Source of the DNA: Streptomyces lincolnensis
Lineage (GTDB): Bacteria; Actinomycetota; Actinomycetes; Streptomycetales; Streptomycetaceae
Direction of reading: 5' to 3'
Assembly: GCF_001685355.1 (NCBI RefSeq)
Contig: NZ_CP016438.1
Location: 4,650,001 to 4,714,000, forward strand
Length of the DNA: 64,000 nucleotides
The notes under the pieces were generated by a model that saw nothing but the letters and a program-made list of their open reading frames with translations, had not been told where the DNA came from and made no database searches. Position numbers and translations under genes: made by a program. Shown here in pieces: positions 50,704-55,555 of the stretch. Position 1 is the stretch's first letter. Each line of letters begins with the position of its first letter.

Positions 50704-51576
50704 CTATTCGGCGAGCAGGTTCCACACCGAGTCGAACCACTTCTGCATGCTCTCCACGAAGACGGAGCCCGACGAGTTCGGATCGCCGTCCGCCACATGG
50801 TGCGTCAGGGTGGCGCCGAGGCCGAGGACGTCGAGTGCGGTGATCTCCTCGTCGGAGTCCAGCATGATCTTGCGCTCGATCACTTCGTACGCCCCGTGCA
50901 ACGCCTCGCCGCCGTTGAACAGGTAGACCTTGAAGGTCGGCGTCAGCGGGGCGTGACGGATCTGCACCTCGACGGAGGGTACGAGGCCTTCGGTCCGCAG
51001 ATCGTTCAGTGCGCTCAGGAGCGACGCCGTGTGCCGCTCGGTGATGACGCGCAGGCGCTCCTGCGGACGTGGGTCGCTCTGGTCGTCCTTGGCGCGCGGG
51101 TACGGCATCGGCAGCGAGGCGTCGGGCAGGAGCATGCGCAGGGCGATGCGCTGCGGAGCTATGTAGCCGCCGTGGATGCGTTCGGCCTGGAGCCGGATGT
51201 GCGCGTCCAGGGTCTGCGAGGTCAACGTGTAGACGTCCAGCGTGACTTCGGGCTGCTCGAACGCTTCGCTGATGAGCGGCTCCAGCCTCGGGCCGTGCCG
51301 CGATCTGGTGGCCCTGGGCGTGGGGGACTGGATGCGCTGGGTCTTGACCACCCTCGACCCGCTGCCCTGCCGCGACTCGATCCACCCCTCGCTGGCCAGC
51401 TCGCGCAGCGCCCGCTGCACGGTGTCCCGGGACACCCCGAGTTCCTCGGCCAGATCACGCTGTGACGGCAGGAAGGACCGCAGCGGATACGTTCCGTCGG
51501 CCATGCGGCCGCGCAACTCGTCTGCGATCCGCTGGAATTCCTTGCCGCCACCTTCGCCGGCCTGCTGTCCGTCCAC
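50704..51576 (-). CDS. GntR-type regulator, cassette 1
   Basis: 290 residues from GTG 51576; an upstream TTG at 51624 gives 306. N-terminal winged helix: FQRIADELRGRMADGTYPLR, LPSQRDLAEELGVSRDTVQR, ALRELASEGWIESRQGSGSR. The C-terminal 210 residues are not a UTRA or FCD domain that I recognise; they end FVESMQKWFDSVWNLLAE, closely matching FVEQSQKWFDALWETI in cassette 2. RHAPLTPTFKVYLFNGGEAL corresponds to LPFTPPVKLYLLNGEEAL. It is divergent from the microprotein at 51751. Most divergent of the three copies. Confidence 0.85.
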   Translation of the reverse strand: MDGQQAGEGGGKEFQRIADELRGRMADGTYPLRSFLPSQRDLAEELGVSRDTVQRALRELASEGWIESRQGSGSRVVKTQRIQSPTPRATRSRHGPRLEPLISEAFEQPEVTLDVYTLTSQTLDAHIRLQAERIHGGYIAPQRIALRMLLPDASLPMPYPRAKDDQSDPRPQERLRVITERHTASLLSALNDLRTEGLVPSVEVQIRHAPLTPTFKVYLFNGGEALHGAYEVIERKIMLDSDEEITALDVLGLGATLTHHVADGDPNSSGSVFVESMQKWFDSVWNLLAE

Positions 51577-51624
51577 AGGTGGACCGTACCGCCTCCAGTC
51601 CACCAGCAAACCATTTTTCCCCAA

Positions 51625-51636
51625 CTGGTCCGCCAG
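51625..51636. promoter_or_regulatory. Weak palindrome CTGG-TCCG-CCAG (candidate GntR operator, cassette 1)
   Basis: Lies within a longer imperfect AACTGG/CCAGATT repeat and before a TTGG-rich stretch, between the divergent GntR and microprotein genes. Position matches the stronger palindromes of cassettes 2 and 3. Confidence 0.4.
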
Positions 51637-51750
51637 ATTGGCCGGTTGGTTAAGGGATCACCGAGACAGGGCAGACCACCTTCACGGTAAGCAGTCCAAT
51701 TGGAATGACACTGGGGCGCTTCACCGGAAGTGGAAGGGAGGTGGATGGAC

Positions 51751-51933
51751 ATGTTCCTGTTTCACATGATCGCGGGACTCGGCGAGCTCTCCCTGAACCT
51801 GTGGGCGCAGACGCAGCTCGGGGTCGTCGGTGTGGTGCTCCTGTTCCTGATCGGCGTGGGCATACGGGCACGCCGCGCTGGTCTCGCGGTGGGAGCTGCC
51901 GTGGTGTTCGCGTTCCTGATGACTCAGGCCTGA
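51751..51933 (+). CDS. Membrane microprotein, cassette 1
   Basis: 60 residues from ATG 51751 (GGGAGG nine bases upstream; ATG 51745 is too close). Hydrophobic throughout with two or three short helices: MFLFHMIAGLGEL, LGVVGVVLLFLIGVGIRARR, then AGLAVGAAVVFAFLM. It aligns with the microproteins at 53766 and 55104 over QxxLGxxGxV and GI(K/R)A(K/R). Function unknown. Its last 10 bp overlap the 3' end of the HAD gene. Confidence 0.65.
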   Translation: MFLFHMIAGLGELSLNLWAQTQLGVVGVVLLFLIGVGIRARRAGLAVGAAVVFAFLMTQA

Positions 51934-52667
51934 GGCCCGGACCGGAGCAGTTCCAGAACCGGCTTGAGCGAGGGCACGATCGCTGTGGCGCCCGCGTCCC
52001 TCAGCAGCTTCTCCTTGCGTTCGTTACGCGCGTAGCCGAGAAACGGGACGCCGGCCGCATCGGCCGCGAGCAGGTCCGAGGGCGTGTCGCCGATCATCAG
52101 TGCGTCCGAGGGGGCCGAACCCATCGCGCTCAGGGCCCTGTTCAGGCAGTGCGGGTCGGGCTTGAGGTGGTTGAGCTGCTGCGTGCGGCCGTAGATGTGG
52201 GGAGCGAAGCAGGATGTCAGGCCGCGGCTCTCCAGGTAGGTGCGCACCACGCGCGGGGAGTTGTTGGTGGCGATCGCCAACCGGGAACCCACCGCTTGCC
52301 AGGTCCGTATCAGCGGATCTGCGTACGCCGTGGGCATCGCCGACGAGGTGGCCCGCAGCTCCTCCTGGGTGAGACGTTCCTCCAACTCGTCCACCAGGTC
52401 GCTGCCCGGGTGCCGACGGTCCACGGCCCGCAGGACGATGTGCGGGTCCAGGGACTTCCGTTCGCTCTCGGTCAGCAGCCCGTGCAGGCCGCGGCCTTCG
52501 AGCCAGTTCACCAGGTCGTCCGCCACCCGGTCCGCCGCATGGCCCGCGAACAGCCGGCAGATCGGCCCGTCGAAGTCCCAGAGCACGACGTGTGGCCGAG
52601 CGATCAGGTCACGCAGGTTCTCGATCTCCACTGTCACTGGTTCAGTCTGCGTCGTATCAGGAGTCAC
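51924..52667 (-). CDS. HAD-superfamily hydrolase, coupled to GntR cassette 2
   Basis: 247 residues from GTG 52667, which shares a base with the TAG of the GntR gene upstream, a tight coupling. Motif I is HVVLWDFDGPICRLFAG (Asp nucleophile plus Asp acid); motif II lies in LAIATNNSPRVVRTYL, motif III in LKPDPHCLNRAL, motif IV in ALMIGDTPSDLLAADAAGVP. Fits phosphoglycolate-phosphatase-like enzymes with a helical cap. Substrate unknown. Confidence 0.85.
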   Translation of the reverse strand: MTPDTTQTEPVTVEIENLRDLIARPHVVLWDFDGPICRLFAGHAADRVADDLVNWLEGRGLHGLLTESERKSLDPHIVLRAVDRRHPGSDLVDELEERLTQEELRATSSAMPTAYADPLIRTWQAVGSRLAIATNNSPRVVRTYLESRGLTSCFAPHIYGRTQQLNHLKPDPHCLNRALSAMGSAPSDALMIGDTPSDLLAADAAGVPFLGYARNERKEKLLRDAGATAIVPSLKPVLELLRSGPQA

Positions 52668-53524
52668 TAGGAGAGTGTCAGGTCCGTCGTGATGGTTTCC
52701 CAGAGGGCGTCGAACCACTTCTGCGATTGCTCCACGAACGCGGCGTCCCGTTGGCCGGTGCCCTTCTCGAAGGAGAAAAGGAGTGATTCGGTGCCGAGGA
52801 CGTCGTACATGTCGAGGACGCCGCTGTCGGAGGCCTCCTCGCGGCGGGTGACCATGTAGTAGGCGATGAGGGCCTCTTCGCCGTTGAGGAGGTAGAGCTT
52901 CACCGGTGGGGTGAACGGCAGGGCGCGGAAGGACACGTGTACGTCGATGCCGTGGGAGGAGCGCAGGGCGCGGAGGTTGTGGCGCAGGACGTGGGACTGG
53001 GCGTTGCGCATGTCGAGCCAGCGCTGGTGGACCGGGTCGTCGTCGCCGCGGCCGTCGACGGGGACCGGGAAGGCCAGGGAGATGTCGCGGGACGGCAGCA
53101 GGATGCGGACGTCGATGGAGTCGGGGCGTATGCGGCCCTCGTGAATGTGGCGGATGGGCTCGCCCAGGGCCAGCATCAGCGTCTCGGCCGTCAGACAGGC
53201 CGCGTCCACGCGGACGTGGGGGACGGTGAAGGCCTCGACCAGGCGGGGGGCCAGGCCGACCATCGTCGGCTGGGGCTCCTCCGCGCGGCCGGTTCGCGGG
53301 GGTTCGGCGATCCTCGGGGGGCTGCCCTTGCTGACGTTGCTGAGGAGACCGTCTTCCTGGAGCGCGCGCAGGGCCTGGCGGACGGTGCCGCGCTCGACCC
53401 CGAACTCCTCGGCGAGCTCGGCCTGGGTGGGCAGGCGGTCTCCCGCCCTGAGGTCGCCCGCACGGATGCGATCCCGCAGGGTGTCGGCGATCTCCTGGGG
53501 CGAGAGTCTTCTGCTGCCGTTCAC
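52667..53524 (-). CDS. GntR-type regulator, cassette 2
   Basis: About 285 residues from GTG 53524 (AGGAG nine bases upstream; GTG 53530 is possible). Winged helix: IADTLRDRIRAGDLRAGDRL, PTQAELAEEFGVERGTVRQA, LRALQEDGLLSNVSKGSPPR. The unusual C-terminal domain contains RILLPSRDISLAFPVPVDGR, RNAQSHVLRHNLRALRSSHG, LPFTPPVKLYLLNGEEALIA and ends FVEQSQKWFDALWETI. It is close to cassette 3 and more distant from cassette 1. Divergent from the microprotein at 53766 and coupled to the HAD gene downstream. Confidence 0.88.
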   Translation of the reverse strand: MNGSRRLSPQEIADTLRDRIRAGDLRAGDRLPTQAELAEEFGVERGTVRQALRALQEDGLLSNVSKGSPPRIAEPPRTGRAEEPQPTMVGLAPRLVEAFTVPHVRVDAACLTAETLMLALGEPIRHIHEGRIRPDSIDVRILLPSRDISLAFPVPVDGRGDDDPVHQRWLDMRNAQSHVLRHNLRALRSSHGIDVHVSFRALPFTPPVKLYLLNGEEALIAYYMVTRREEASDSGVLDMYDVLGTESLLFSFEKGTGQRDAAFVEQSQKWFDALWETITTDLTLS

Positions 53525-53632
53525 TGCCACGTTCTCCTGGGTCACGACCAAACGCTACAACTTCCATCCATCTATGTGGAGTTGTTTGAAAGTTGTTTTG
53601 AACCATGTACCAAGTGGGGACAACTACCATTG

Positions 53633-53647
53633 AGTTGGTTACCAACT
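53633..53647. promoter_or_regulatory. Palindrome AGTTGGT-T-ACCAACT (candidate GntR operator, cassette 2)
   Basis: Perfect 7-bp arms with one central base. It lies about 120 bp before the microprotein start and about 109 bp before the GntR start, alongside AGTTGT half sites (53583, 53593). Confidence 0.7.
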
Positions 53648-53765
53648 TGGTCTAGTTGGCTAAGGGTTCGCCTCATCCGAACCATCCCGGATCGTTCCGC
53701 ACCATCATGACCCCCCACGCCCGCCTCGCACCGCCTCGCCCGGCACGACCGAAGGGGGAACCACC

Positions 53766-53954
53766 GTGCCTGCTCTCGCCCTCCTCGCCGCCGTCTTCGT
53801 CGTCGGCATCGAGCAGACCGTCCAGTGGAAGTACGGCGCCGCCGGCGTCGTCGGTCTGCTGCTGCTCACCATCGGCATCAAGGCCAAGAGCCCGGCCGTC
53901 AGCTCCGTCGGAGCGGTCATGCTCGCCCTGCTCGTCGCGGGGCCCGCCTTGTGA
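53766..53954 (+). CDS. Membrane microprotein, cassette 2
   Basis: 62 residues from GTG 53766 (GAAGGGGGAA upstream). LALLAAVFVVGIEQTVQWKY, then AAGVVGLLLLTIGIKAKSPA and VGAVMLALLVAGPAL: two or three membrane segments, with a conserved QW(K) before a Gly-rich turn and GIKAK facing the cytoplasm by the positive-inside rule. Homologous to the products at 51751 and 55104. Function unknown; toxin, signalling peptide or transporter accessory are all possible. Confidence 0.72.
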   Translation: MPALALLAAVFVVGIEQTVQWKYGAAGVVGLLLLTIGIKAKSPAVSSVGAVMLALLVAGPAL

Positions 53955-53993
53955 CTCGACGGCCCCGCCTCACCATGACCCCTGTGGGAGACC

Positions 53994-54908
53994 TCAGGTC
54001 GTGAGCGTCAGCTCCGAACTGATCGTCTCCCACAGTGCGTTGAACCACAGATGGGACTGCTCGACGAACGTCGTGTCCCGCAGTCCGGCCCCCTGCTCGA
54101 AGGCGAACAGCATCGACAGGGCGCCCGTGGCGTCGTACATCTCCAGGTTCTCGTGGTCGATCTCCGCCTTGCGGCGCGACAGCGTGTAGTAGGCGAAGAG
54201 CGCCTCCACCCCGTTGAGGAGATACAGCTTCACCGGCGGGGTGAACGGCAGGGCGCGGAAGGACACCTGCACATCGATGCCGTGGGAGCCGCGCAGGGCC
54301 AGCAGGTTGTGCCTCAGCACCTGGCCCTGCGCGTTGCGCTGCGCCAGCCAGCGGTCGTGGACCGGGGCGTCGTGCTCGCTGCGCCCGTCGACGGCCACCG
54401 GGAAGGCGAGATCGATGTCCCGGCTCGGCAGCAGCACCCGGACCGCGATCTTGGCCGGTTTCAGTCGCCCGACGTGGATCTGGCGCAGGGGTTCGCCGAT
54501 GGCGAGCGTGAGGGAGACCGAGGTCAGACACAGGGCGTCGATCTCGACCTGCGGAGCCGCGAAGGCGGACTCGATGCGCGGCCCGAGGGCCACGGTGGTG
54601 GGCAGCGGTGGCGCGGCGGGACCCGTCAACGGCCTGGTCAGGGCGGGGTCGGGAGCCACGGTCGCGGGGCTTCCCTTGGATACGTTGGTCAACAGGTGCT
54701 CGGACTGAAGGATGTACAGCGCCTGCCGTACGACTCCCCGCTCCACCCCGAACTCGTCCGCCAGCTTGGCCTGGGTGGGCATGCGCTGACCCGGTCGCAA
54801 CTGCCCGGAGCGGATGCGGGCGCGCAACTCGTCGGCCACCTCACGATGTGACTTGTGTGGCTGCTGTGCCCTCCTCCGCCCATTGACGGCGGCGTGTTTC
54901 GGGTCCAC
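53994..54908 (-). CDS. GntR-type regulator, cassette 3
   Basis: 304 residues from GTG 54908, with no ribosome-binding site, so the transcript may be leaderless. Winged helix: VADELRARIRSGQLRPGQRM, PTQAKLADEFGVERGVVRQA. C-terminal domain with VRVLLPSRDIDLAFPVAVDG, RNAQGQVLRHNLLALRGSHG, LPFTPPVKLYLLNGVEALFA and FVEQSHLWFNALWETI. Long blocks are identical to cassette 2, pointing to duplication. Divergent from the microprotein at 55104. Confidence 0.88.
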   Translation of the reverse strand: MDPKHAAVNGRRRAQQPHKSHREVADELRARIRSGQLRPGQRMPTQAKLADEFGVERGVVRQALYILQSEHLLTNVSKGSPATVAPDPALTRPLTGPAAPPLPTTVALGPRIESAFAAPQVEIDALCLTSVSLTLAIGEPLRQIHVGRLKPAKIAVRVLLPSRDIDLAFPVAVDGRSEHDAPVHDRWLAQRNAQGQVLRHNLLALRGSHGIDVQVSFRALPFTPPVKLYLLNGVEALFAYYTLSRRKAEIDHENLEMYDATGALSMLFAFEQGAGLRDTTFVEQSHLWFNALWETISSELTLTT

Positions 54909-54994
54909 AACCAAACACTACAACTTCCCGCCATCTTTGGGCAGTTCAGCGAAAGGTGGTTATGAGCCGCATCCAAGCGGAGATAAGTACAGTG

Positions 54995-55011
54995 AAGTTG
55001 GTCGCCAACTT
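54995..55011. promoter_or_regulatory. Palindrome AAGTTGG-TCG-CCAACTT (candidate GntR operator, cassette 3)
   Basis: Perfect 7-bp arms with a 3-base centre, in the same intergenic position as in cassette 2. ACTACAACTTCC and CCATCT words upstream of the GntR start are also shared with cassette 2. Confidence 0.7.
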
Positions 55012-55103
55012 GAGCAACATGGTCAAGCTTCCGCAAGGTTGGCCCTCCAGGCGACCGGCGGGGACCACGTCCCGTTGGGGGACCGGCCCGAAGGAGGGAC
55101 CGC

Positions 55104-55289
55104 ATGCCGATCATCGCCCTCGCCATCGCCGCCCTTGCCGTCGGCTTCGAAGCACTCGTGCAGTGGAAGTGGGGCGCCATGGGCATCGTCGCCTTCGTCG
55201 CCCTGACCGTCGGCATCAAGGCGAAGAACATCGCGATCGGTGGGATCGGAGCGGTCATCCTCGTGATGCTGCTCGCCCATTCCGGCTGA
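55104..55289 (+). CDS. Membrane microprotein, cassette 3
   Basis: 61 residues from ATG 55104 with GGAGGGACC upstream. IIALAIAALAVGFEALVQWK, then WGAMGIVAFVALTVGIKAKN and AIGGIGAVILVMLLAHSG. It shares VQWK(W/Y)GAxGxV and TxGIKAK with the cassette 2 product. No cleavable signal. The end is followed by the five 13-bp repeats. Function unknown. Confidence 0.72.
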   Translation: MPIIALAIAALAVGFEALVQWKWGAMGIVAFVALTVGIKAKNIAIGGIGAVILVMLLAHSG

Positions 55290-55337
55290 CCGGGCTCCCT
55301 TCCGGAGGGGAGCCGGGAGCTCGGTCCGTCTGCACAG

Positions 55338-55490
55338 CCACAACTGAACATCGGCCACATTCAGTACAGCCACAACTGAACACCGGTCACATCGGCGATA
55401 CCGAGCTCAGTCACAACTGAACACGGCAACATCCGCACAGCCACAACTGAACAGCACGTCACGGAGGACCAGTACCGCCACAACTGAAGA
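55338..55490. repeat. Five 13-bp direct repeats (CCACAACTGAACA)
   Basis: Copies at 55338, 55370, 55411 (first base T), 55441 and 55478 (one mismatch near the end), 30-41 bp apart. Spacers are unrelated and uneven, so this is not CRISPR. The CAACT core resembles the half sites near the GntR genes. Confidence 0.75.
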
Positions 55491-55555
55491 GCTCGCTACG
55501 GATGCGAAGCAGCAAGACAGCACGACACAGCAACTGCCGTCGGCAGGAGGGAGGT

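Follow-up and report, generated by a model that had tools for sequence, protein, structure and literature searches.

The dev locus in Streptomyces lincolnensis

The sporulation locus dev of Streptomyces coelicolor is organized around devA (SCO4190), which encodes a GntR-type autorepressor and is co-transcribed with the phosphatase gene devB. According to the available part of the published account (PMC3187754), negative autoregulation applies to devA together with devB, the divergent gene devC has a small hypothetical product, about 50 residues long, and devE (SCO4188) is a duplicate of devA. In devA and devE mutants, aerial growth and septation go wrong at defined steps; in 2011 the same account described what was understood about the functions of the two regulators, their regulons, and the metabolites they sense as early-stage. 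Here, we analyze a 64,000-nucleotide stretch of the 10.3-Mb Streptomyces lincolnensis genome (G000:C1:4650001-4714000, hereafter the window), in which three minus-strand genes for GntR-type regulators, R1, R2, and R3, are each opposed by a plus-strand gene, M1, M2, and M3, for a hydrophobic protein of 60-62 residues. A preliminary description of this DNA had reported such a triplicated cassette, and both its coordinates and its pairing of regulator and microprotein were correct.

Part of this locus is already known as dev. The two halves of the published devA deletion oligonucleotide match the ends of R2 at 45 of 55 and 38 of 40 bases, and the core of the SCO4189 promoter (PMC8346170) is found exactly in seven named records, in every one of them directed toward M2 from the gap that separates it from R2. 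These records are six Streptomyces (including S. tendae and S. violaceorubidus) and one Kitasatospora aureofaciens, and in two of them the match to R2 falls into two pieces. Because the oligonucleotide halves and the promoter core sit at matching places, we identify R2 as DevA, the adjacent HAD gene as DevB, M2 as DevC, and R3 as DevE, with the link to S. coelicolor running through the published devA flank and promoter sequence. By the same sequence comparison, the published SigF/H/N-dependent SCO4189 promoter is the devC promoter.

Like the S. coelicolor locus, the window holds the regulator, the HAD gene, and the divergent small protein in the same order. Unlike the S. coelicolor account in its available part (PMC3187754), it adds a third regulator-microprotein copy, R1/M1; it also retains a devE-side microprotein, which that paper reports for S. 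sviceus and S. coelicolor alone, and its microproteins have 60-62 residues, against about 50 given there for DevC. R2 and R3 are 64% identical (57.6% is given for DevE and DevA in that paper), and R1 is 37% identical to R2 and 31% to R3. The paper also describes DevF and DevG of S. sviceus (SSEG00372 and SSEG00373) as extra DevA-like copies of about 30% identity, as R1 is here; by level of identity only, R1 would fit such copies. No microprotein beside DevF or DevG is mentioned in the available part of the paper. The GntR domain PF00392 matches R1, R2, and R3 with E values of 5.5e-19, 2e-18, and 5.4e-17, respectively. R3 has 24 matches in the genome, and only R1, R2, and R3 are matched over the full span, the other 21 matches being N-terminal only.

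Distribution of the regulators and microproteins

A relative of R3 (E ≤ 1e-15) was present in 101 of the 150 genomes that we surveyed in the genus, S. lincolnensis included. The other 100 genomes contributed one stretch each, which we analyzed with the window, leaving copies elsewhere in a genome uncounted (for example at G007:C1:976256, at G092:C1:3476268, on G139:C36, and on G144:C94). A profile search gave 214 regulator matches; 210 had an open reading frame (ORF) of at least 230 residues and were counted, and four shorter ones were dropped. A homologous microprotein faces 136 of these 210 regulators, while any small hydrophobic ORF occupies that place in only 1 of the other 74, so the pairing exceeds chance. 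The microprotein accompanies 58 of 61 regulators in the DevA clade (support 0.86), 36 of 68 in the DevE clade (0.99), 28 of 41 in the R1 clade (0.95), and 14 of the 40 others. Among these others, none of the 19 members of the two outermost regulator groups, as placed in a midpoint-rooted tree within the genus, has one. Two of the microproteins that adjoin no counted regulator (loci L054 and L059, from genomes G021 and G002) are of the M2 type and neighbor a DevB-like HAD gene (53-55% identical), and no devA was seen in the interval.

In a survey of 296 genomes of the class, the regulator was found in 33 genomes from 7 of 114 genera; 11 of these genomes lie outside the genus, one with a match to the helix-turn-helix (HTH) only. 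The microprotein was found in 18 genomes, all from a single genus of the 114, and the only hint of it under a different genus name is the K. aureofaciens record. The preliminary description had named related regulators elsewhere that consistently lack the microprotein as a finding that would refute it. In this sample, the microprotein is indeed absent outside the genus (0 of 11 genomes with the regulator) and from the two outer groups, but not from the DevA, DevE, and R1 clades. Because the regulator occurs in seven genera and the microprotein in one, the microprotein looks like a Streptomyces addition to an older regulator family, and it looks to have been duplicated along with the regulator and then lost next to roughly half of the devE genes. 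The available part of the published account states that S. sviceus and S. coelicolor are the only species to retain the devE-side microprotein (PMC3187754); the DevE-clade count shows that it is kept more widely.

Promoters, a conserved palindrome, and regulator starts

The M2 promoter of the window has the features of the SigB-type (SigF/H/N) class, GTTT in the -35 box and GGG(N)A in the -10 box, and in the available part of PMC8346170, SigF, SigH, and SigN recognize the SCO4189 promoter in an E. coli two-plasmid system. A GTTT-N-GGGGA promoter is directed toward DevC in 53 of 58 DevA-clade loci, against 9 of 58 on the other strand and a mean of 1.04 in shuffled sequences. In 43 of 45 cases, a palindrome, AAGTTGGnnnCCAACTT, begins 10 nucleotides (nt) past the -10 box of this promoter. 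With two mismatches or fewer, it is present in 50 of 58 DevA-side regions, 33 of 36 DevE-side regions, and 11 of 14 others, and reversed control sequences never came below four mismatches. On the DevE side of the window, the promoter-like box at 54958-54984 and the palindrome at 54995 keep the same 10-nt spacing. A looser DevE-side promoter pattern, written after the consensus had been seen, fits 25 of 36 regions and none of the shuffled ones. The palindrome is also kept in 29 of the 32 DevE-clade genes that have no microprotein, and the intergenic DNA between regulator and microprotein is highly conserved.

The S. lincolnensis genome has three palindrome sites at one mismatch or fewer, two of them at the dev locus. 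A wider palindrome regulon was considered and set aside: 21 sites occur at two mismatches or fewer, compared with 19 for the reversed pattern, and therefore no regulon can be read beyond the dev locus.

On the regulator strand, TAG(C/T)GT, again a pattern written after the consensus had been seen, lies 5-7 nt before the GTG in 46 of 58 DevA-side and 23 of 36 DevE-side regions, but in none of the 28 R1-side or 14 other regions. Because a -10-like element sits this close to the GTG, we take it to suggest that the regulator mRNAs are leaderless, starting at 53545 (DevA) and 54908 (DevE).

A predicted phospholipase D-like domain in the regulators

The C-terminal domain of the regulators had been described beforehand as non-standard, and this was borne out: Pfam and NCBIfam matches centered on the HTH and gave no known domain for the C-terminal half, and the matches of a PDB sequence search were confined to the N-terminal part. 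PF00392 is present in all 70 members of a regulator alignment (A1), made of 17 of 120 listed proteins, 50 of 120 from a second list, and 3 from the window. The predicted fold of DevA residues ~92-293 is, by structure comparison, phospholipase D (PLD)-like, a fold common to the single-domain PLD proteins Nuc (1byr), NucT (6ehi), and Zucchini (4h4a).

The PLD active site is marked by the motif HxK(x)4D (HKD). Unlike Nuc, NucT, and Zucchini, DevA-family proteins carry no catalytic His, and the position of the HKD Asp is taken by N. With the motif placed by eye, the His column holds L, P, M, T, or A in 70 of 70 A1 members, among the residues listed, and the Asp is replaced by N in all 70; HxKxxxxD occurs anywhere in the sequence in just 1 of the 210 surveyed regulators. 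Because the catalytic His is absent, the predicted C-terminal domain is probably a binding domain for a small ligand and not an enzyme that cleaves it. TrmB-type archaeal regulators, which belong to another HTH family, join a winged-helix domain to a non-catalytic PLD-like sensor domain for sugar ligands. One of them, TrmBL2 (5bpi), is in the Foldseek list with an alignment root-mean-square deviation of 18.6, and is thus a lead only. A literature search pairing DevA with phospholipase D returned nothing, and the passages of PMC4681348 that were consulted did not touch on the dev locus.

Coding evidence for the microproteins

The probable start of M1 is the ATG at 51751, which has GGAGG on its 5' side and yields 60 residues; the listed 67-residue ORF began at an upstream GTG. 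M2 and M3 are 49% identical and M1 and M2 27%. The three proteins have a grand average of hydropathy (GRAVY) of 1.41-1.60, and EQxVQW(K/R) is conserved between the hydrophobic stretches of the microproteins, which we aligned as 25 of 120 listed proteins and 3 from the window (A2). Two motifs had been proposed for them; GI(K/R)A(K/R) is present in M1, M2, and M3, but QW(K) only in M2 and M3, with QTQ in M1. Searches of Pfam and NCBIfam with the microproteins gave no match above the curated cut-off.

The microproteins had been thought to look translated, and the ratio of nonsynonymous to synonymous polymorphism (pN/pS) supports this on the DevA side, where 45 genes of equal length have a pN/pS of 0.50 in frame versus 0.80 and 2.25 in the shifted frames. 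Median values are 0.51 on the DevA side, 0.59 on the DevE side, and 0.88 on the R1 side. With start codons assigned computationally, 45 of 58 DevA-side microproteins have exactly 62 residues. Assigned starts are ATG or GTG in 134 of 136 genes, and purine runs resembling ribosome sites occur in the examples listed.

A model for the dev cassettes and its alternatives

On balance, we think it probable that DevA-type repressors, whose PLD-like sensor would be catalytically dead, keep two targets in check during aerial development: their own gene and a membrane microprotein driven by sigma-F/H/N. A DevA-type protein would be a one-component repressor in which an N-terminal GntR winged helix is joined to a PLD-like domain that binds a small ligand. 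DevA and DevE would bind the palindrome, a candidate operator; binding at this position, 10 nt beyond the -10 box, would thus block the microprotein promoter and also feed back on the probably leaderless transcript of the regulator itself. A shift in ligand level in aerial hyphae would relieve repression, sporulation and stress sigma factors (SigF/H/N at devC) would then make the microprotein, and devB would be made with devA. The microprotein may insert as a hydrophobic hairpin of two or three helices and adjust a membrane step of aerial growth or septation. The operator function of the palindrome, ligand sensing, derepression, and the membrane role are all steps that we infer.

Several observations weigh against this model. 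An adjacent microprotein is missing from 74 of 210 regulators, its predicted fold is of low confidence, and the coding signature is weak on the R1 side (median 0.88, with 27% of pairs at a pN/pS of at least 1). The strict SigB-type pattern precedes only 2 of 36 DevE-side microproteins. Control in the R1 clade differs, because the palindrome is found in 0 of 28 R1-side regions and a SigB-type promoter in only 8 of 28. In addition, the authors of PMC3187754 argue, in the available part of the paper, against DevE acting at the devA promoter, even though the palindrome is common to both regions.

The microprotein could instead be a membrane partner of its own regulator, holding or releasing it, and each cassette a membrane-coupled sensor. 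That all 33 class-wide microprotein matches adjoin a regulator match (compared by eye), that EQxVQW(K/R) is conserved, and that the clade pattern suggests more than one joint duplication of the pair all speak for this arrangement, which we nevertheless hold to be unlikely, as 32 of 68 DevE-clade and 13 of 41 R1-clade regulators persist without a microprotein, and 6 of 142 microprotein matches in the genus survey lie beside no counted regulator. Similarly doubtful is a more far-reaching proposal, in which the three cassettes would be membrane-coupled one-component switches that control aerial hypha length as well as septation, their catalytically dead PLD sensors each wired to its own membrane microprotein and their timing set by sporulation sigma factors; the microprotein would then supply the output, or the feedback partner, that has been missing from the dev locus.

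Small size, high GRAVY, and divergent layout also recall small membrane toxins, and the preliminary description had listed a toxin among its possibilities. We judge it very improbable that the microprotein is a holin-like or membrane-depolarizing toxin silenced by the regulator, given how often DevE-clade regulators persist without it and its restriction, among the 114 genera of the class survey, to a single one. L054 and L059, where no devA was seen between the microprotein and the DevB-like gene, may point the same way. Moreover, the published in-frame devA null is viable and has a developmental phenotype, as the available part of PMC3187754 describes, and such a deletion would be expected to derepress the dev locus. 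Least credible of all is a non-coding reading, in which conservation of the regulatory DNA between regulator genes would have left the small ORFs as a by-product; the intergenic DNA is itself highly conserved, but the rise of pN/pS in shifted frames and the largely constant length of DevA-side proteins argue against it. The preliminary interpretation thus holds for a regulatory role, an unusual C-terminal domain, HAD coupling, and translated-looking microproteins, although it missed the known dev locus and its toxin reading is unsupported.

Features of the locus and neighboring genes

Table 1. Features at the S. lincolnensis dev locus (window positions)
Feature	Position	Strand	Remark
Protein with two APH domains, 731 residues	48237..50432	-	3' of R1; conserved neighbor
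R1: DevA-family GntR regulator, third copy (possibly DevF/DevG-like)	50704..51624	-	start codon uncertain
M1: 60-residue membrane microprotein	51751..51933	+	divergent from R1
DevB: HAD hydrolase	51924..52667	-	GTG start overlapping R2 stop by one base
R2: DevA	52667..53551	-	probable leaderless GTG start at 53545, read from sequence
SigB-type promoter GTTTTG-N15-GGGGAC for M2	53595..53621	+	equivalent of S. coelicolor SCO4189p
Candidate DevA operator GAGTTGGTTACCAACTT	53632..53648		10 nt after -10 box
M2: DevC, 62-residue membrane microprotein	53766..53954	+	
R3: DevE	53994..54914	-	probable leaderless GTG start at 54908
Promoter-like GGTTAT-N15-GGAGAT for M3	54958..54984	+	layout as M2 promoter
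Candidate DevE operator AAGTTGGTCGCCAACTT	54995..55011		full palindrome match; 10 nt after promoter-like box
M3: DevC-like 61-residue membrane microprotein	55104..55289	+	divergent from devE
Five oriented direct repeats around CCACAACTGAACA	55316..55491	+	downstream of M3

The preliminary description had coupled a HAD gene to the second copy, and the sequence agrees, as the shared base joins the GTG to the TAG stop of R2. Outside the window, a DevB-like gene directly follows the regulator in 55 of 60 cases in the DevA clade, 5 of 67 in the DevE clade, 5 of 40 in the R1 clade, and 25 of the 40 others. In the relatives L050, L051, L058, L060, L061, L062, L065, and L067, R1 has a convergent neighbor, a second HAD gene that shares 33-37% identity with DevB. 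The double-APH gene, rightly reported to adjoin the first copy, comes 271 nt after R1. A near-full-length double-APH gene occurs in 26 of the 100 stretches, 18 times 139-455 nt behind an R1-clade gene and 8 times 600-1500 nt behind a DevA-clade gene on the same strand; because the stretches are short, its absence elsewhere says little.

The repeats downstream of M3 are five near-copies of ACAGCCACAACTGAACA at irregular spacing. Two or more repeat copies (two mismatches or fewer) lie outside the devE start region in 37 of 68 DevE-clade loci, or 41 when start-region copies are counted; the DevE-clade copies number 136, with 0 on the opposite strand and 16 for the reversed motif. The exact 13-mer is present in 44 of the 150 genus genomes, and 52 of its 63 matches are near devE (coordinates compared by eye), while the reversed control had 2 matches. 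In S. lincolnensis, all three exact 13-mer copies are in the array, and the 17-mer has no further site within two mismatches outside it. The array was rejected as an RNA candidate, with no Rfam match up to E 1 and a folding z of -1.71. In one genome, an exact 13-nt repeat overlaps the devE start region (G099:C801:8122-8134, L113); elsewhere the likeness to this region is weak, with a shuffled motif nearly as good for many genomes, and loci with and without the array do not differ in it. A GC-rich hairpin is predicted at 55287-55326, directly after the M3 stop and 5' of the array; it has no T run and was not listed by a terminator scan.

Implications for the dev locus

The conserved membrane microprotein is a likely regulated product of the dev locus, and its distribution broadens the view, stated in the available part of PMC3187754, that a microprotein persists at the devE duplication in just two species. 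Handles for testing come from a candidate operator hardly found outside the locus, the constant distance between promoter and operator, and a predicted fold for ligand binding; together they give new, modest but concrete, access to the dev locus.

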